The translations under genes were made by a program, and so were the position numbers. 64,000 bases of DNA from Rhodanobacter denitrificans. GTDB taxonomy: Bacteria > Pseudomonadota > Gammaproteobacteria > Xanthomonadales > Rhodanobacteraceae. The notes under the pieces were generated by a model that was not told the origin of the DNA, ran no database searches, and saw only the letters and a list, made by a program, of their open reading frames with translations. Of the stretch, positions 1,788 through 28,759 are shown piece after piece (position 1 is the stretch's first letter; each line of letters starts with the position of its first letter). The stretch is from NCBI RefSeq assembly GCF_000230695.2, contig NC_020541.1:3472001-3536000 (forward strand). Reading direction: 5' to 3'.

Positions 1788-4490
1788 TCAGCCGGTGTTC
1801 TGCAGCCCTTGCGAAACGCCGTTGACGCAGGCGACCAGGGCCTGCAGCACGGCGTCGTCGGTGTGCTCGCCTGCGCGCCAGCGCTGCAGCAGGTCGACCT
1901 GCAGCAGGCTCATCGGATCGACGTAGGGATTGCGCAGGCGGATCGAGGCGGCCAGGCGCGGGTCGCCCTGCAGCAGCGCGTCGCTGCCCTTGAGCCGCAA
2001 CAGCCAGTGGCGGGTGCGCGCGAACTCGTCGCGGATCAGGCCGAAGAATTCCTCGTGCAGCGCGCCGGACAGCTTCGAGAACGCCTCGGCGATGTCCAGG
2101 TCACACTTGGCCAGCACCATTTCCACGTCGTCGAGCAGGTTGGCGAAGAACGGCCAGTCGCGCGCCATCTCCGCCAGCGCCGCTTCGCCGAACTGCTGCA
2201 CGCCCTGCTCCAGCGCGCTGCCCAGGCCGTACCAGCCGGGCAGAATCGAGCGGCACTGGGTCCACGCGAACACCCACGGGATCGCGCGCAGGTCCTGCAC
2301 GCCGCGCATGCTGCGGCGGCTGGCCGGGCGCGAGCCCAGGGTCATCCGCTCGATCACGTCGACCGGCGTGGCAGTGCGAAAGTAGTCGACGAAGCCATCG
2401 CGCTCGACGAACGCGCGGTACGTCTTCCGGCTGGCGGCCGCCAAGGCGTCCATCTGCTCGCGCCAGCGCGCTTCGCGTGGCTCGTCTACGCGCGGACGCA
2501 GGCTGGCGCGCAGCACCGCACCCACGGTCTGCTCCAGGTTGCGCAGCGCCAGCGCACGGATGCCGTACTTGCGATGGATCACCTCGCCCTGCTCGGTCAC
2601 CCGCAGCACGCCGGCCACCGCGCCGCGCGGCGAGGACATCAGTGCCGGCGTGATGCGCGCGCCGCCGCGGCTGGCCGAGCCGCCGCGGCCGTGGAAGAAC
2701 GCCAGCTGGATGCTGGCCGCATGCGCCACCTCGAGCAATTCCACCTGGGCGCGCTGCAGGCCCCAGCGCGAGGCCAGCGTGCCGCCGTCCTTGCCGCTGT
2801 CGGAATAGCCCAGCATCACCCACTGCTGGTCGCCGCGCGCCGCGAGGTGGCGGCGGTAGACCGGGTCGTCGAGCAGGGCGCGCAAGGTGGCCGGCGCATT
2901 CTTCAGGTCGTCGACGGTCTCGAACAGCGGCGCGATGTTGAGCGGCACGTTGTCGTCCTGCACCAACCCGCCGTAGCGCGCCAGCGCCAGCACCGCCAGC
3001 ACGTCGGCGGCGCTGCGCGCCATGCTGATGATATACAGCCCCACCGCCTCGCCGCCGTAACGCCGGCGGGTGTTGCCGAGGGTGGCGAACACGTCGTACA
3101 GCGCGACGACCACCTCGGCATGGCTGATCGCGAAGCGTGCGCCGCCGCTGGCGTAATCGCGCAATTGCCGCGCGCGCTCGTCAGCCTGGCGCGCGGCCCA
3201 GCCATCGTCGGCCAGCAGCGCGGCCAGCGCGTCGTCGTGCACGCGCGAATCCTGCCGCACGTCCAGCCGCGCCAGGTGGAAGCCGAAGCTGCGCACGCGG
3301 CACAGCAGGCGTTCCACCGCGTAGGCGCCGGCGTGCACGCCGCGGTGCTGGAACAGGCTGTCGGCGATCAGCTGCAGGTCGTCCAGCAGTTCGCCACTGG
3401 ACGGATAACCGTCCGAAGATTCGTCGCCGGTCAGCGCCAGCCGCGCGCCGACCAGCTGCAGCAGGCAGCGGTACGGCATGTCGGCGTGGCGCGGGCGGAT
3501 CTGCGCCGCGGCGGCCGGGAAGCGGGCGCGATAGTCCGCCAGCCGCGCGCGCAGCGCCGCGGACGCTGCCACGCGACCCTCGGTCTGGCTGAGCAGGCGC
3601 GCCAGCGTGGCGACGTCCTCGCGGTAGCGCTCCAGCACCAATGCGCGCTGCGAGTCGAGGCAGTCGGCGATGGTGTCGGCGCCCACGTTGGGGTTGCCGT
3701 CCATGTCGCCACCGACCCAGCTGGCGAAGCGCAGCAGCCGCGGCAGCTTGATCGCCACGCCGTAGGTCGTCTGCAGCGCCTGCGCCAGCGATTCGTACAG
3801 CGCCGGCACGATGCGGTACAGCGGATGGGCCAGGTAGAAGTCCACGTGCTCGCGCTCGTCCTGCACGCTGGGCCGCACCGGCGAGGCCTCGGCGGTCTGC
3901 CAGCCGGCGGACAGCGCCATGTAGATGCGGTCGTCGTCCTCCCGGCGCTCCTGCGGCGTGCGCTCACGGTCGAAGCCGTCGATCAGCGAGGCGACGATCG
4001 CCTGCTCCTTCTCCAGCAGCGAGCGGCGCACCGCCTCCGTCGGGTGCGCGGTGAACACCGGCTCGATCCACAGCCGATCAAGCCAGCCGACCAGCTCGTC
4101 GGCGCCCACGCCCGCAGCCTTCAGCCGGCCCAGCACGTCGAGCAGCGATTCCGGCTGCGGCGCGCTGCCCTCGCGCTGGTAGTCGCGACGACGACGGATG
4201 CGGTGCACCCGTTCGGCGGTGTTCACCGCCTGGAAGTAGGTGGCGAACGCGCGCGCCAGCGCTTCGGCGTCGTCGGCGTCGAGACCGGCCAGCGAGGCGG
4301 CCAGTTCCTCCACCGAGGCACCTTCGCGGCGACGGCGGATCGCCGCCGTGCGCACCTGTTCGACCCGCGCGAAGAATGTGTCGCCGCCCTGCTCGGCCAG
4401 CATTCGCCCGACCATCGCGCCCAGGCGGCTGACATCCTCGCGCAACGGGCCGTCGGGCGGCAGGAACTCGGGTTCGCGACTGGGTTCCAC
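1788..4490 (-). CDS. ppc: Phosphoenolpyruvate carboxylase
   Basis: The protein carboxylates PEP to oxaloacetate, the anaplerotic supply of the TCA cycle. From the GTG at 4490 it is 900 residues, a normal length. Catalytic signatures are present: VFTAHPTEA with the catalytic His near residue 149, the mid-protein [10 protein letters not shown], and [12 protein letters not shown], which binds PEP and bicarbonate. The C-terminus ends QNTG, typical of the family. The frame is open to an ATG at 4571, but that 27-residue extension (Arg/Trp-rich) looks non-coding, so the GTG is preferred; an internal ATG is also possible. It is divergent from ahcY. Confidence 0.95.
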
Positions 4491-4601: not shown

Positions 4602-4690
4602 CCCGCCGAGGGGCGCTGCGACCGTTGCCGTGAATGAACTTCACGGGAACCGGCCAGGCTCGGCGCGGCACGTTCCACAACGGCGCTCAG
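4602..4690 (+). promoter_or_regulatory. SAH (S-adenosylhomocysteine) riboswitch upstream of ahcY
   Basis: The conserved aptamer core is readable. P1 is CGCCGAG (4604-4610) paired with CTCGGCG (4659-4665), the 5' core is GGGGCGCTGCGACC, and the joining strand GCCAGG lies just before the P1 3' strand. The 3' pseudoknot strand AACGGCGCTCA (4679-4689) can pair with GGGCGC (4611-4616). An extra hairpin, CCGTGAA/TTCACGG (4628-4646), sits between them. This matches the known SAH-element architecture. SAH riboswitches turn on SAH-recycling genes when the toxic product SAH accumulates. The start codon is about 80 bases downstream. Confidence 0.9.
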
Positions 4691-4768
4691 TACGCGAGTC
4701 CCTTCGCGGCAGACCGGCCATCCATGGCCGGACTCCTCGAAAAAGCCTCGCACCAACTGGAGATATCC

Positions 4769-23058: not shown

Positions 23059-23511
23059 TCATCGAAGGTCCGTGGCCGCGGTCACTGGCCGCGGCTGGGT
23101 GTAGGAACGCGCCGGGTCCACCGCAAAGCGCCCGCTCAGCGCGCTGCGGCCCAGCAACAGCGGAAACAGCATATGCCGGCGATCGGTCAGGTTGATGTCG
23201 ACGCTGAACTGCTGCCCGGCCAGTTGTACTTCACTGCGGATGAACCAGCGCTCGGTGCGCCGGCCGCCGGTGTCGGTGACCGTGCGGCGATCCCATGCCG
23301 GCGCCTCGCAACGGGTTTCCACCGGCTGGCGCCGCCCGACATGCAGGGTGAAACGCAGCCAGGTGGCGCCGTCGCGCTGGAACTCCTCGAGGGTGTCCAC
23401 ATGCAGCGAACTGCTGCGCGCGCCGGTATCGAGCTTGGCCTTGAGCAGGCCGATACCCAGCTGCGGCAACGCCAGCCGCTCCCGCCAACCGAGGGTGATC
23501 AGGTCCGCCAT
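23059..23511 (-). CDS. rimB: Retropepsin-like aspartic protease, RimB/DUF785 type
   Basis: The 150-residue protein carries one aspartic-protease triad near the N-terminus ([14 protein letters not shown]) and the second hydrophobic-Gly motif [19 protein letters not shown], the classic single-domain retropepsin layout (a dimer forms the active site). Databases often call this family 'ATP-dependent zinc protease'. The pseudomonad homologue RimB is reported to modulate RimK activity. It starts 30 bases after the split tRNA-Gly on the same strand, so its transcript may read through from the tRNA promoter. Confidence 0.85.
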
Positions 23512-23541
23512 GAGGATTCGGGATGACTCGGGGGCCGGAAG

Positions 23542-23576
23542 TGGAGCGGGTGAAGGGAATCGAACCCTCGTCAGTA
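23542..23576 (-). tRNA. tRNA-Gly(CCC), 3' exon (35 nt) of an intron-split gene
   Basis: Read on the minus strand, this is TAC (end of the anticodon stem), TGAC (variable loop), T-arm GAGGG-TTCGATT-CCCTT, acceptor CACCCGC, discriminator T and an encoded CCA. It completes the 5' exon at 26233-26271 exactly. Joined, the two give a 74-nt cloverleaf with anticodon stem GTAGC/GCTAC and loop TTCCCAA. The interruption lies after the second base of the 3' anticodon strand. Confidence 0.85.
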
Positions 23577-23577
23577 G

Positions 23578-23615
23578 TCGGGTGGGAAGGTGGCCTCACG
23601 GCCACCCTCCCCCCT
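23578..23615 (-). ncRNA. Group II intron domain VI
   Basis: Read on the minus strand, GGGTGGCC pairs with GGCCACC around GTGA, with further pairing GGGGGGAGGGTGG/CCACCTTCCCACCC and an A-containing bulge near the 3' side as expected for the branch point. The intron 3' end CGAC follows directly. The branch A cannot be fixed by eye. Confidence 0.6.
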
Positions 23616-23617
23616 AA

Positions 23618-23651
23618 GAACCGTACGTGAGACTTTCGCCTCATACGGCTC
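23618..23651 (-). ncRNA. Group II intron domain V (catalytic hairpin)
   Basis: The 34-nt hairpin on the minus strand reads GAGCCGTATGAG, GCGAAAGT, CTCACGTACGGTTC. It contains the AGC-type catalytic triad side, a GAAA tetraloop and the conserved bulge. This is the near-invariant signature of an active group II intron. It lies 45 bases after the RT stop. Confidence 0.95.
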
Positions 23652-23695
23652 AAGCAGCCAAGAACTCGATCCGCACCCGCGGGACGAGCGGCAGC

Positions 23696-25321
23696 CTATC
23701 CTTTCGCGCCACGTGCGTGCAACTGCTTGTGACACGTCGGGTGGAGCAACTGCAGGTTGGACAGTTTGTCTGACCCTCCATAAACCCTCCACACCACGTG
23801 GTGAACATTCCACCCCGTGGCCTTGGTGATCTTGGCGGAGCAGATTGGGCAGATGCCCTCCTGTCGGTTCCACAGCCAGTACAACCTCCTGCGTCCTTGC
23901 AGAGTGGACCGCATCCGCCGAGTCAGTCGCTCGTCGAAGTAGGCCTCGTCCTTTGGGTCGTATGGGTTGGTATCGGACCTAACCTTGACGTGCCTGACCA
24001 CAGGAACCTTGGCCAGGTGAATCAGGCTGGACACATCCGTCCGAAAGAGCCAGTCGCGGGAATCGTCCCGGCGGAAGTACCGCCGCTTGATCCAACGCTT
24101 GCCCTTCATGGGATGCCGACGCGTTGCCCATCGCCATAGCGCGCGCGTGACCTGGTAATCCAGCTTTGCGAACGTCCGTGACGCATGCACGATTTGGTGG
24201 TAGTTGGCCCATCCCCTGAGAATCGGGTTGAGGGCGAACACCACGTCATCCTGCCTTGCGCCTCGCAGCTCACGCAGCCGGTCCCTGACCTTTGCGTAGA
24301 ACGCTGTGGCGTTTCGTTTCGACGGGACAATGTTCAGGAATTGCTTGTGCTTCTGAACATGCCAGCCAAGGAAATCGAACCCTTCCGTCACGTGGGTGAT
24401 TTTCGTTTTCTTCTCCGAGAGCGTGAGACCGCGCTCGGATAGGAAACCCACGATCAGCGGCTTGACCTTGGCTTCCAGGACCTCCTTCGAGATCGCAGTC
24501 ACCACAAAGTCGTCCGCATACCGGATGAAATTCACCTTGTCCCGGCGTGGGAGGCTGTCTTTCAACAGCCGGTCCATGCCGTCCAACGCCAGGTTTGCCA
24601 AGCACGGGGAGATGATCCCGCCCTGTGGCGTACCTGCATCCGTCGGGAACAGTTTCCGACCCTCCACAAACCCGGCTTTGAGCCACTTCTCCAGCAAGCG
24701 CCGATCCATCGGCACGTTGCGCACCAGCCAGTCGTGGCTGATGTTGTCGAAGCACGCCTTGATATCGCCCTCCAGTACCCATTGCGGCGAATGTTCTCGG
24801 CTCAGTGCGTTGTGGCACTGGGCGATGGCATCTGCCGTTGAGCGTCCGGAGCGAAAGCCGTACGAGTTGAGGTCACCTCGGGTTTCCGCGACAGGATCGA
24901 GTGCAAGCCAGTGCAGCGCCTGCATGGTTCGGTCCTTCATCGTGGGTATGCCTAAGGGCCGCTTCCCGCCACTGGCCTTCGGGATGTGGATCCTGCGAAG
25001 CGGTTTGGGACGGTACCCGCGCGAATCCAGCGCTGATATCGCCTTCCACTTCTCCTTGGGCGTGGACCAAGTGAGACCATCCACACCGGGGGTCTTCCGG
25101 CCTTGGTTCTCCGTAACTCGACGTACCGCGACTGCTCGTGCGGTAGTCGAGCGGACTAGCAACTTTTGCAACCGTTTCACGGTGCGCCAGTTTTCGTCCT
25201 TTGCTGCCTTCGCTATGCGTGCCTGCAACCTCCTGACGTGTTGGAACGCTTCGGCCCACGGGATCGTGTGCCACTGGTTCCAGCGCGCGGAGGCGACATC
25301 GCCAAGGGTATTGGCGTCCAT
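23696..25321 (-). CDS. ltrA: Group II intron-encoded protein: reverse transcriptase/maturase with HNH endonuclease
   Basis: The 541-residue protein is intact, with all parts for splicing and retrohoming. The RT domain (about 60-340) has RKTPGVDGLTW, IPKASGGKRPLGIPTMKDR, TPQGGIISP (231-239) and the catalytic YADD at 268-271. Domain X/maturase (about 370-450) has LRGWANYHQI. The C-terminal HNH endonuclease has a CPIC (491-494)/HPTCHKQLH zinc pair with HH at 507-508. A strong Shine-Dalgarno, GGAGGA, sits in the 16 bases between the intronic tRNA's CCA end and this ATG, so tRNA 3' processing would directly release an mRNA with a ready leader. Confidence 0.95.
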   Translation of the reverse strand: MDANTLGDVASARWNQWHTIPWAEAFQHVRRLQARIAKAAKDENWRTVKRLQKLLVRSTTARAVAVRRVTENQGRKTPGVDGLTWSTPKEKWKAISALDSRGYRPKPLRRIHIPKASGGKRPLGIPTMKDRTMQALHWLALDPVAETRGDLNSYGFRSGRSTADAIAQCHNALSREHSPQWVLEGDIKACFDNISHDWLVRNVPMDRRLLEKWLKAGFVEGRKLFPTDAGTPQGGIISPCLANLALDGMDRLLKDSLPRRDKVNFIRYADDFVVTAISKEVLEAKVKPLIVGFLSERGLTLSEKKTKITHVTEGFDFLGWHVQKHKQFLNIVPSKRNATAFYAKVRDRLRELRGARQDDVVFALNPILRGWANYHQIVHASRTFAKLDYQVTRALWRWATRRHPMKGKRWIKRRYFRRDDSRDWLFRTDVSSLIHLAKVPVVRHVKVRSDTNPYDPKDEAYFDERLTRRMRSTLQGRRRLYWLWNRQEGICPICSAKITKATGWNVHHVVWRVYGGSDKLSNLQLLHPTCHKQLHARGAKG

Positions 25322-25337
25322 ATCAGTCCTCCAAAGT

Positions 25338-25411
25338 TGGAGCGGGTGAAGGGAATCGAACCCTCGTCAGTTGCTTGGGAAGCAACAGCTCTACCATTGA
25401 GCTACACCCGC
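25338..25411 (-). tRNA. Complete tRNA-Gly(CCC) lying inside the group II intron
   Basis: The 74-nt cloverleaf has an encoded CCA: acceptor GCGGGTG/CACCCGC, D-arm GCTC-AATGGTA-GAGC, anticodon stem GTTGC/GCAAC, loop TTCCCAA with anticodon CCC (reads GGG), variable TGAC, T-arm GAGGG-TTCGATT-CCCTT, discriminator T. It is identical to the split tRNA-Gly except for one anticodon-stem base pair (A-T changed to T-A). It is on the same strand as the intron, between the 5' domains and the RT gene, where domain IV should be. Confidence 0.93.
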
Positions 25412-26232
25412 CCATGACCCTTTGGGGATGGACGCCCCCTGATGGGGATCGTCACCCCATCGGGAGTCGGTTGTCAGACCTGTCTAGCGACAGGCCACCA
25501 CGCGGAAGTCTGCACCCTTTCGGGTCGGGGCGATCGTTTCATCCCCTATCCCAGCCATTACAGCCGGGCCTTCGCTTCTTCCGCGATCCTGTGCCCGCTA
25601 AGCCTTCAACAATCCTTGCGGTTTGTCTAGTCGGCACCAAGGTGCCGACAGCCTATCGGGGTTTCCACGTTCCGTACAAGTAACAGTGTAGCTAGGGTTC
25701 CACCTTTTCGCCGGAGGTACTTCATCAGCGCATTCCCACCAAGCAGGGGAATGACCGACCTCGTCCCTTTTGGGTTGGGCCCAGATGCGTTTGGCCCATC
25801 TAGCTTGACGACGTTTAGATGGTGGTTCGCTTGCGCTAACCCTTGCTGCACAGCCTAGCGCCTATTCGGATGCATCTTCCGAGGTCACGCTGGCCCCTCG
25901 CGGGACTGGCGTACCCGTGAGGGTGGCTACATTGTCAGAGCGCTTGGCACGGAACCGTTTCCAGTTCCGCACTGCTCCTAGGCTACCGGTGGCTGAACAC
26001 CGGGTCAGTTCGGCCTAAGGCCGACTGACAATTACTCGCACGGCGTTCGCCGTGTACTGCGTCGATACCGGGATGACCAGCAAAGTGCTGACCACTTGCC
26101 CAGAGACCGGCGCAACGTGTCACGGATTCGGGCCGTGTCCCGCCTTGCGCACCGTGGGTGCATGGGGCTTCGGTTACCAGGCTATGAGGCCCTGGCTGCC
26201 TTTAACGCGCACGTACACGGCTCGTGTCGCAC
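25412..26232 (-). ncRNA. Group II intron 5' domains (I to III)
   Basis: About 820 non-coding bases start with GTGCGAC. Readable landmarks on the minus strand include the EBS1 loop in the stem CATTCCC/GGGAATG, an EBS2-type loop in the stem CCATCTA/TAGATGG (around 25795-25821), and many GNRA-like caps. The 3' part contains the purine-rich AACCGCAAGGATTGTTGAAGG and GCGGAAGAAGCGAAGG, typical of the domain II/III region. Open frames predicted here are chance frames over structured RNA. Confidence 0.75.
25739..25744 (-). other. EBS1 guide of the intron, matching its tRNA target
   Basis: On the minus strand the hairpin loop contains GCTTGG, a perfect six-base complement of CCAAGC, the last six bases of the 5' tRNA exon (26233-26238). 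The loop is closed by CATTCCC/GGGAATG. This is how group II introns recognise their site, and it confirms the exon boundary. Confidence 0.85.
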
Positions 26233-26271
26233 GCTTGGGAAGCTACAGCTCTACCATTGAGCTACACCCGC
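26233..26271 (-). tRNA. tRNA-Gly(CCC), 5' exon (39 nt) of an intron-split gene
   Basis: Read on the minus strand: acceptor GCGGGTG, TA, D-arm GCTC-AATGGTA-GAGC, T, anticodon stem GTAGC, loop TTCCCAA (anticodon CCC), then GC, after which the intron starts (GTGCGAC). It pairs with the 3' exon at 23542-23576. Upstream on the minus strand, TTCAACC and GTTACCAT are possible -35/-10 elements (26272-26310). Confidence 0.85.
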
Positions 26272-26512
26272 CTTGGCCGGCGGATGGTAACCCGGGATTC
26301 GCGTGGTTGAAAAGCTCGCGGGAACGAAGAGCACCCCTCACCGGCCATGCCGGGGCGGGCGCAGAACTGCGGCGCGGCGCCCAACGCGTGCTGAACAGCC
26401 CTCTGCGCATACTCTGGCGATGGTCATCGCCGGCCCGACAATGCACGTTGACCGCACCATGACGAACACCCGCCCCGCTCCAGTCTCATACGCACGCCCG
26501 AAGGAGAGCCGC

Positions 26513-28759
26513 ATGCCCAGGTTTGCCGAGTCCCCTGTTTCGTGGCGCCGCCGCTGGCGAGCACTGGCGCTCGTGCTGCTGTGCATGGCGGCGGGACTGG
26601 CCCACGCTCAATCCGGCGCCGATGACCGCGCCGCCCCGCCGAGCCGGGTGGCGCGGCTGTCGTACATCGCCGGCGACCTCGGTTTCCTGCCTGCCGGCGC
26701 GAAAGACTGGAGCGACGCCAACATCAACCGGCCGCTGACCCGCGGCGACAAGCTGTCGACCGCCCGCGGCGCGCGCGCCGAACTGGAGTTCGGCGGCGGC
26801 ACGTTGCGCATCGACGGGCGGACCGACCTCGGCCTGCTCGACCTCGACGACAACCTGGCCCAGATCGAGTTGACCCAGGGCACGCTCAGCCTCACCGTAC
26901 GCCGCCTCGACGACGGCCAGAGCTACGAGATCGACACCCCGACGGTGGCGCTGGTGGCCGACCAGCCCGGCACCTTCCGCGTCGACGTCGACGACCGCGA
27001 CGGCAGCACCCGGGTCACCGCGCTCGACGGCAGCGCCACCGTGTTCGGCGAGAACAATGCGCAGCGCCCGATCAACCCCGGCCGCAGCTACCGCTTCGCC
27101 GACGCCAGCCTGGCGATGGTGACGATCACCGACGTCGATGGCGGCGACGCGTTCGACGACTGGGCCAGCCAGCGCGATCGCCGCTACACGCGCTCATCCA
27201 GCCGCCGCTACGTGTCCGAGGACGTGGTGGGCTACCAGGACCTCGACCGCTATGGCAGCTGGCGGGAAACCCGCGAGTACGGCGCGGTGTGGTATCCCTC
27301 CGACATCGGCGTCGACTGGGCGCCGTACCGCAGCGGCCACTGGGCGTACATCGCGCCCTGGGGCTGGACCTGGGTGGACGACGCGCCGTGGGGCTTCGCG
27401 CCCTACCACTACGGCCGCTGGGCCTGGGTCGGCGGCGGCTGGGGCTGGATCCCGGGCCCGCTCGAGGTACGCCCGGTCTACGCGCCGGCGCTGGTGGCCT
27501 TCGTCGGTGGCGGCGGCTGGTCGATCGGCATCGGCAGCGCGCCGGTGGGCTGGTTCCCGCTCGGCCCGGGCGAGGTCTACAACCCGTGGTACCGCTGCGA
27601 CCGCAGCTACTACACGCGCGTCAACGTCACCAACATCTACGTGCACAACACGATCAACCGCACCACGGTGATCAACAACATCAACCACCAGTACAACTAC
27701 TACCGCACGGGCCGACCGCTCCGCGACGTCAGCTATGCCAACCGCATGGCGCCGCGCGGCTTCACCGCCGTGCCCGGCAGGAGCTTCGCCGAAGGGCGCC
27801 GCGTGCAACGCGACCGGCTCGATGTCGATCCGCGCAAGCTCGCCAGCGCACCGGTGCCGGTGCGCGGCATCGACCGCCTGCGTCCGCAGGACAACCCCAA
27901 CCGGCCGCCGCGCAGCGCGCACGCGCGCGACCTGCCCGCCGGCGGCTTCGACCGCGAGGTAGTGGCGCGACGCGCACCACCCGCGCCGGCCCGCGAGGCA
28001 GCCTTCACCGGCCGCGGCGACAATCGCTACGCCGCGCCGCGCAGCAACGTGCGCGTGCTCGACGGCGCGGACCGGCCCGAGCGCAGCCAGCGGCTGGAGG
28101 TGACCGATCGCAACGGCGCCGGCCCGCGCCGGCCGGCGACCATGCCCGGTCAGCTTCCGGTGGCTCCGCGCATCACCGCAGCCGGCCCCGGGGACCGACC
28201 GCAGCCGCCGCGCGACGCTGCCGAATTGCGCTCGGCCCGTTTCGCGCATCCGCGTGGCCGCGACGACACGACCCGCCCCGAGGCGATGCCGCGCCCGGGC
28301 GTCAGCTACATCGCGCCCGCCGCCGAAGGGCGGCCGCGTGCGATCCCGGACAACCGCCCGCTGCCATCGGAGCCGGCGCCGATCCGTCGCGCCGAATCCC
28401 GCCGCCTGCCGACGCCAGCGGACGATGGCCGCTTCCAGCGCTACCCGTCCGAACGCGCCATGCAGCAGCAACGACCGCAGCCGATGGAGCCAACGGTGCG
28501 CGAACCGGCCGCGTCGCGTTTCCAGCGGCCCGAACCCGCGCCGCGCGAATCCATGCGCGAATCACCGCGCCCGCTGCCCGCCCCGGACCGCGGCGAACCG
28601 ATGCCGCGCTACCAGCCGCCGCAACAAGTGATGCCGCAGCCGCGCGCCATGCCGGAGCCGCGCGCGATGCCGGAGCCGCGCGCCGAGGCGCGGCAGCCGC
28701 AGCGCAGCGATGCGCCCAACCGCAAGCGGCAGGTGGACGAAAACCAGGGAGAGCACTGA
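26513..28759 (+). CDS. Secreted FecR-domain / DUF6600 protein with low-complexity tail
   Basis: The 748-residue protein has a signal peptide (about 1-35, cut near LAHAQS). A FecR-like beta domain follows (about 45-200: [32 protein letters not shown]). A very Trp/Tyr-rich block (about 245-380) repeats W-x-PY/W-G-W elements such as [19 protein letters not shown], the DUF6600 signature. An Asn-rich stretch ([20 protein letters not shown]) follows, and the last ~330 residues are Pro/Arg-rich and disordered, with short MPEPRA repeats near the end. It is likely periplasmic or surface-associated. GAAGGAGAGCC precedes the chosen ATG. Function unknown. Confidence 0.8.

Follow-up and report, generated by a model that had tools for sequence, protein, structure and literature searches.

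A group II intron in a tRNA-Gly(CCC) gene carries an intact copy of its target tRNA

How is tRNA-Gly(CCC) supplied when the gene that encodes it is interrupted by a group II intron? This question is raised by a locus in a 64,000-nucleotide (nt) stretch of the Rhodanobacter denitrificans genome (NC_020541.1, positions 3,472,001–3,536,000; hereafter, the window), in which a tRNA-Gly(CCC) gene is split within its anticodon stem by a 2656-nt group II intron. The initial annotation recognized this arrangement, which is confirmed here, and concluded that decoding of GGG by this tRNA would depend on splicing. That conclusion overlooked an intact tRNA-Gly(CCC) inside the intron. Because the only intact tRNA-Gly(CCC) found in the genome is intron-borne, the CCC anticodon need not depend on splicing. 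We consider it probable that the element is a tRNA-targeting group II intron that carries a self-resistant rescue copy of its target and that splicing of the interrupted gene still works.

The split tRNA gene and the intact tRNA in its intron

All parts of the split gene and its intron lie on the reverse strand of the window. The 5′ exon (26233–26271) comprises the first 39 nt of tRNA-Gly(CCC), through tRNA nt 40, and the 3′ exon (23542–23576) provides the last 35 nt, from nt 41 onward, with the CCA end. Both were assigned from the junction reading and stem pairing, and the insertion point is located between nt 40 and 41 on the 3′ side of the anticodon stem. The joined exons form a 74-nt tRNA-Gly(CCC) with CCA, whose stems are fully paired (acceptor, 7/7; D, 4/4; anticodon GUAGC/GCUAC, 5/5; T, 5/5). 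The intron (23577–26232) is delimited by its sequence ends, GTGCG and AC. Its 5′ ribozyme part (25858–26004) matches the Rfam family group-II-D1D4-7 with 107.3 bits (E = 1.4e-21), and domains V and VI (23577–23653) match Intron_gpII with 70.0 bits (E = 9.9e-12), both above the gathering score. The maturase open reading frame (ORF; 23696–25321) encodes 541 amino acids with RVT_N, RVT_1, GIIM and HNH domains in a domain search and exceeds the NCBIfam cut-off for group II reverse transcriptase (RT)/maturases. Two exon-binding sites (EBSs) are predicted. EBS1 (GCUUGG, 25739–25744) forms six of six pairs with exon positions −6 to −1 and an equal number with the internal tRNA, and EBS2 (AAGCUA, 25801–25806) forms six of six pairs with exon positions −13 to −8 and five of six with the internal tRNA. 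These hallmarks of group II introns are present: GTGYG/AY ends, ribozyme domains, an intact RT/maturase with endonuclease, and EBS1 and EBS2 pairing. The initial annotation had placed the exons and their exact rejoining correctly to the base, and its account of GUGYG/AY ends, domains V and VI, an intact RT-maturase-HNH protein and an EBS1 complementary to the last six exon bases is borne out, as is the group II nature of the 5′ domains, for which it had proposed a covariance-model check.

The internal tRNA-Gly(CCC) (25338–25411, transcribed from 25411 to 25338) is detected by both ARAGORN and Rfam (72.2 bits, E = 7.9e-14). It is complete, folds into a cloverleaf with all stems paired, including an anticodon stem of GUUGC/GCAAC, and combines a CCC anticodon and an encoded CCA with a covariance score that qualifies it as a tRNA. 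The internal and joined tRNAs are identical at 72 of 74 positions. The sole difference is base pair 29:41, where the split gene has A-U and the internal copy U-A; the pair corresponds to exon positions −12 and +1. Rfam and ARAGORN, applied to the same stretches, each give 49 tRNA genes for the genome, which is one contig of 4.2 Mb. Its glycine tRNA genes are two GCC, one TCC and one CCC, the last being the internal copy. The single tRNA-Gly(TCC) could also read GGG through wobble. A sigma-70 consensus promoter was not found on either strand of positions 23400–26600, which is weak evidence either way.

An intron lineage with tRNA cargo

The case is not singular: judged from sequence comparisons, the intron belongs to a lineage with such tRNA cargo. 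A protein search of the genome_contigs collection yielded 243 confirmed candidates, the best 80 of which were kept; 37 of these share at least 60% protein identity with the window's maturase and 43 share at most 56%. At least one tRNA-Gly half is found at the insertion site in all 37 closer relatives, and the internal tRNA-Gly(CCC) is intact by ARAGORN in 33 of them. The four exceptions are L090, which has Ns within the tRNA, and L072, L085 and L096, in which nothing but the tRNA 3′ end is left next to the maturase gene. ARAGORN finds no tRNA in any of the 43 loci at or below 56% identity. Among 233 genomes of the family, 41 contain some protein match and nine contain a match of at least 77% identity. 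In all nine, the window included, the intron interrupts the tRNA at the same position and contains the internal tRNA-Gly(CCC), and a pattern search of the other eight carrier genomes finds one CCC copy each, the internal one. The hosts include Rhodanobacteraceae, Solimonas, Gallionellaceae, Rhodocyclales and Burkholderiales; the distribution is patchy, and uninterrupted target sites are seen in relatives. Plasmids and phages as carriers were considered and rejected, as at least 4988 of at least 5000 matching plasmid records and 56 of 56 phage records match at below 60%; among the plasmid matches listed, 12 match at 60–80%.

A quick protein tree of 82 rows places 35 of the 37 tRNA-lineage rows in two groups (Shimodaira–Hasegawa-like approximate likelihood ratio test, SH-aLRT, 99 each) and 44 close outgroup rows in one group (SH-aLRT 100); L091 is absent, its reading frame not having been picked up. 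The tRNA lineage may have a single origin, of which the tree is not a strict proof, because the two Solimonas rows attach at an unresolved fork and a single very long branch (L049) attracts the root. Individual members deviate in various ways. The L091 intron starts with GCGCG, and the other introns start with GTGCG. In L039 and L068 (Mizugakiibacter sediminis), a stop breaks the maturase frame near residue 105 and both tRNAs are whole. Domain V lies further from the ORF start than in other members, by approximately 200 bases in L069 and L085 and by 600–650 bases in L072 and L075. The cargo does not measurably lengthen the stretch before the ORF: after removal of rows without the anchor motif, the distances overlap, with 229–269 in 21 tRNA-lineage rows and 166–273 in 19 others.

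The conservation of both tRNAs was analysed in 35 introns (L031, L033, L034 and 32 further named loci), after L061 (a near-copy of L065), L090, the split-tRNA loci L072, L085 and L096, and six loci with G handles that duplicate named ones were dropped. The internal tRNA is 74–75 nt long with a UUCCCAA loop in 35 of 35, and in all 34 introns with both exons readable (L117 excluded) the exons join to a whole tRNA that has no more than one stem mismatch. In the 74-nt set, standard pairs occupy 685 of 693 stem cells in the internal tRNAs (33 tRNAs) and 684 of 693 in the joined tRNAs, and double changes are observed at 7 and 9 of the 21 pairs, respectively. Neither the exon halves nor the internal tRNA differ at any of 74 positions in any pair of a Rhodanobacter trio (L031, L066 and L033), of which L066 is the near-identical intron of Rhodanobacter thiooxydans LCS2. 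The maturase genes of the same trio differ at 24/273, 24/267 and 26/264 fourfold sites, and the 150 bases upstream differ at 43/139, 32/139 and 44/149 positions. At a rate of 8.8%, 6.5 changes would be expected per 74 bases, and the probability of none is 0.001 per pair. Fourfold sites of the neighbouring rimK gene differ from those of the window at 24/184 and 22/172, near what the maturase gene shows; inheritance of the intron along with the rest of the genome is thus quite possible in the trio. The unchanged state of both tRNAs points to selection on both and hence to use of the joined tRNA, which requires splicing of the split gene; splicing in the cell probably still occurs.

Fit of the cargo to the intron guides, its placement and the competing explanations

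The internal copy is the poorer intron target in most members. The anticodon stems of the joined and internal tRNAs differ in 34 of 34 introns. EBS1 forms six of six pairs with its own exon in all 34, and EBS2 forms six pairs with the exon in 11 introns, five in 21 and four in two. Counted over EBS1 and EBS2, Watson–Crick pairs with the internal copy are fewer than with the exon in 31 of the 34 scored introns, equal in one and more numerous in two (L089 was not scored; the rows are related and the counts not independent). When a T at +1 is also counted as a match, the internal copy is lower in 31, equal in one and higher in one (n = 33). At the two members of base pair 29:41, position −12 is A in 33 of 34 exons versus 4 of 35 internal copies, and position +1 is T in 32 of 33 exons versus 4 of 34 internal copies. 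As a separate observation on two close relatives, EBS2 is AAGCAG in L064, which has a TAGCTT exon, and AAGCTA in L065, which has a TTGCTT exon, so that each guide suits the exon of the other better.

The initial annotation had suggested looking for the uninterrupted tRNA in related genomes, and it is readily found: 44 of 45 genomes of the genus have exactly one match to the intact-gene pattern. It is an uninterrupted gene in 41 of them, with a GTAGC/GCTAC stem in 40 and GTTGC/GCAAC in one; the other three are carriers, and there the pattern hits the copy inside the intron. Within the 53 bases that the search pattern spans, 40 of the 41 uninterrupted genes equal the joined allele; five uninterrupted loci were inspected individually. 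The remaining one (genome G149, L142 1488–1561) is an uninterrupted tRNA-Gly(CCC) with the internal-type stem at the same place beside rimB and rimK and without any intron remnant; G149 is either a resistant host or a host that lost the intron. Outside the genus, 11 uninterrupted family members have other stems (GTTGC in six, GCGGC in two and three others, one of which equals the odd internal stem of L067). Twelve loci of uninterrupted hosts, namely these 11 and L142, were examined as possible former carriers because their alleles are of intron type; the idea was not retained, as intron DNA matches only the tRNA and at most five flanking bases. With no matching intron DNA beyond the tRNA surroundings, cured and naturally resistant hosts look alike. 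The cargo allele may have come from uninterrupted hosts with such stems, or those hosts may have lost the intron.

The position of the cargo within the intron is also distinctive. In a predicted fold of positions 25470–25300 (z = −4.1), the cloverleaf sits atop a helix, with the anticodon stem drawn two pairs longer than in a tRNA. The 5′ arm of the helix (25419–25437) pairs with the 3′ arm (25312–25337), which carries the GGAGG ribosome-binding site (25332–25328) and the maturase start. This predicted bracketing helix is conserved across the introns, with energies of −17.8 to −27.2 kcal/mol in 35 of 35 versus a shuffled mean of −13.4 kcal/mol. Arm-by-arm covariation is not supported by the energies: own arms average −21.0, swapped arms −19.8 and shuffled arms −13.4 kcal/mol, and own arms surpass the swap mean in only 18 of 35. 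The Ll.LtrB intron has the ribosome-binding site and start codon of its maturase in domain IVa, to which the protein binds to repress its own translation. The tRNA seems, from the fold, to occupy the loop of a domain-IVa-like hairpin. Group II introns split within domain IV can splice in trans, and excision of a tRNA from such a loop need not stop splicing.

The cargo has its own history. The split gene has a D-arm of CGTAT type, and the internal tRNA is of TAGCT/TAGTT type in 10 of 34 introns, which argues that the cargo arrived with the intron. The two D-arm types of L074 differ in another way. In L087 and L117 (the latter outside the 34), the internal tRNA itself is of CGTAT type. Judged by these types, the cargo has been swapped in some introns, each time for a tRNA-Gly(CCC). 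In Thauera propionica (L096 and L200), an element with a Phage_integrase-family ORF is inserted into the internal tRNA. Its sides are approximately 22 kb apart on the contig (L200 1135–3501; L096 about 3930–4000), and at its junction it carries its own tRNA-Gly(CCC), ending in CTCA; the insertions are nested, the element lying within a tRNA carried by an intron that itself interrupts a tRNA gene. Unrelated sequence precedes the remaining tRNA 3′ end in L072 and L085, as would result from the entry of another element into this tRNA.

We favour, as the probable explanation, an intron lineage specialized on the tRNA-Gly(CCC) gene with a complete tRNA copy atop the domain-IVa-like hairpin. On insertion, the cargo would replace the interrupted gene and thereby free the host from the need for efficient splicing. 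The compensated anticodon-stem change at the positions read by the guides would leave the cargo a good tRNA and yet a poorer intron target, and splicing would yield a second tRNA-Gly(CCC). This explanation draws on features that can be read directly from the DNA: the anatomy, the conservation in the lineage, the single intact copy in each checked genome, the poorer fit of the cargo in most members and the conservation of both tRNAs. Expression of the cargo, cellular splicing of the split gene and protection of the cargo by its poorer fit are inferred. Several observations weigh against it. The complete lack of identical stems is not significant by itself, since shuffling the internal stems among introns gives a mean of 0.66 matches and zero in 49% of shuffles. 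The fit of the internal copy is often only one pair lower (11 versus 12 or 10 versus 11), in 29 of 35 introns the internal copy still pairs with EBS1 at six of six positions, and the guides of L064 and L086 fit the internal copy better than the exon and those of L083 equally well. L065 and L089 (the latter by eye: −12 T, +1 A) are inserted in exons of the supposedly resistant type. A convincing EBS3 is absent from an alignment of 35 tRNA-lineage and 29 groEL-lineage 5′ regions, in which the two exons with A at +1 are set apart from most rows with T at +1 by one column outside the domain I match, imperfectly. A rescue copy would hardly be needed if the exon tRNA were spliced well, and separate recent insertions in the trio hosts would weaken the exon half of the selection argument.

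The alternatives differ in which of the two tRNAs is given a function. The conclusion of the initial annotation, that the tRNA-Gly(CCC) of the cell matures solely by splicing of the interrupted gene, fits the exact exon rejoining, the EBS1 and EBS2 fit and the unchanged exon halves in the trio; it has no place for an intact intron-borne tRNA-Gly(CCC) that is found throughout the lineage and is itself unchanged in the trio (0/74), and we hold it to be very unlikely. The converse, an intron without useful splicing that site-specifically replaces its target and leaves the exon halves as leftovers, with the internal tRNA as the sole working one, gains from the interrupted Mizugakiibacter maturase frame beside a whole internal tRNA and from the GCGCG end of L091. 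Such leftovers would not be expected to form a whole joined tRNA in 34 of 34 introns, to show 0/74 changes in the trio where approximately 6.5 are expected at the silent-site rate, or to retain domains V–VI and the fits between EBSs and intron-binding sites, which makes this converse improbable.

A function of the internal tRNA outside translation, as an RNA module of the intron (a domain IVa cap, a maturase-binding site or a processing signal for maturase translation), would explain why, in 35 of 35 introns, it stands on the helix that includes the ribosome-binding site, and would fit the z of −4.1 for the fold at the window's locus. We give this idea little chance, because a module needs no anticodon and the UUCCCAA anticodon loop is present in 35 of 35, swapped cargo (L087 and L117) is again tRNA-Gly(CCC), and the Thauera element that broke the internal tRNA brings its own. 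Capture of a tRNA once in domain IV and retention by chance would have an easy source, as uninterrupted hosts with the same stem alleles exist; with the tRNA whole in 35 of 35 introns, whose proteins range down to approximately 60% identity with that of the window, and unchanged in the trio, such passive carriage is hardly credible. More elaborate is a fail-safe switch, which we mention tentatively and consider unlikely. Each transcript would either splice, giving the joined tRNA and the intron ribonucleoprotein, or be cut by RNase P at the internal tRNA, giving the spare tRNA and an intron split in domain IV, so that every transcript would yield a tRNA-Gly(CCC). Excision of the tRNA would also part the helix arms that hide the ribosome-binding site and turn on the maturase. 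If true, intron expression and mobility would be coupled to host tRNA processing.

Downstream of the tRNA lie rimB-like and rimK genes; upstream, in divergent orientation, is an ORF with DUF6600 and FecR domains. Elsewhere in the window, positions 4602–4695 of the forward strand match the S-adenosylhomocysteine (SAH) riboswitch in Rfam (54.2 bits; gathering score, 37).

Relation to known systems

The closest known relatives are the introns at the groEL stop codon (Avi.groEL type, in Azotobacter and other gammaproteobacteria), which form the sister group of the tRNA lineage in the protein tree. The two lineages have in common the Rfam 5′ class (checked in family-level relatives), an RT-maturase-HNH protein, specialization on one housekeeping gene, and EBS1 and EBS2 at homologous places. 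Of the 43 sister loci, 29 have the groEL junction, ATGATGTA followed by GTGCGAC, which agrees with the groEL intron of Azotobacter reported in PMC4465626. EBS1 and EBS2 of the sister loci, read by eye, differ from those of the tRNA lineage and suit groEL, which supports the EBS assignment in the tRNA lineage. Unlike the tRNA lineage, the sister loci contain a tRNA in 0 of 43. Membership of the present intron among the groEL stop-codon introns was considered and rejected, since the insertion is in tRNA-Gly(CCC); the tRNA lineage is a sister, not a member. One relative of the groEL lineage, on a Lysobacterales contig (L127, about 60–100), lies directly after what appears to be the 3′ end of another group II intron.

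Among the titles and abstracts listed in the literature searched, which excluded a 2007 paper on specialized lineages, none deals with a bacterial tRNA-Gly gene interrupted by a group II intron or with a group II intron that contains a tRNA gene. The chloroplast trnK gene is interrupted by a group II intron with the maturase gene matK inside it, as described in PMC4424553. The present locus resembles trnK/matK in having a group II intron with a maturase within a tRNA gene and differs in that trnK/matK is organellar with a maturase that is without an RT part. The matK maturase has lost that part, and we know of no tRNA cargo in the chloroplast trnK intron. Integrative elements are known that enter tRNA genes and restore or replace them, the invader supplying what its insertion removes. 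The Thauera element in the internal tRNA is of this integrase type, with its own tRNA-Gly(CCC), whereas the intron, unlike integrase-based DNA elements, is an RNA-based retroelement that carries a whole tRNA gene. The predicted helix places the maturase start and its ribosome-binding site in a domain-IVa-like hairpin, as in domain IVa of Ll.LtrB from Lactococcus; unlike in Ll.LtrB, the hairpin is predicted to be topped by a tRNA. Bacterial group I introns also occur in tRNA genes, including those for tRNA-Leu, tRNA-Arg and others (excerpts of PMC3984707 and PMC4853749). They are likewise self-splicing and belong to another ribozyme class, and a spare tRNA is not described in those excerpts.

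The lineage also offers a natural test bed for the life of a retroelement in a housekeeping RNA gene, for the avoidance of targets through compensated changes in base pairs and for the conflict that may arise when RNase P and group II splicing act on one transcript. For annotation, it illustrates that a tRNA finder such as ARAGORN can call a gene intact while the chromosomal gene stands in two pieces. Bacterial group II introns are mostly found outside housekeeping genes and elsewhere must splice well, according to PMC4424553. The tRNA lineage suggests a third way, in which the intron carries a replacement for its target that is altered where the intron guides read. Compared with the known systems, what is new is the tRNA cargo, and the tested features are otherwise those of group II introns.

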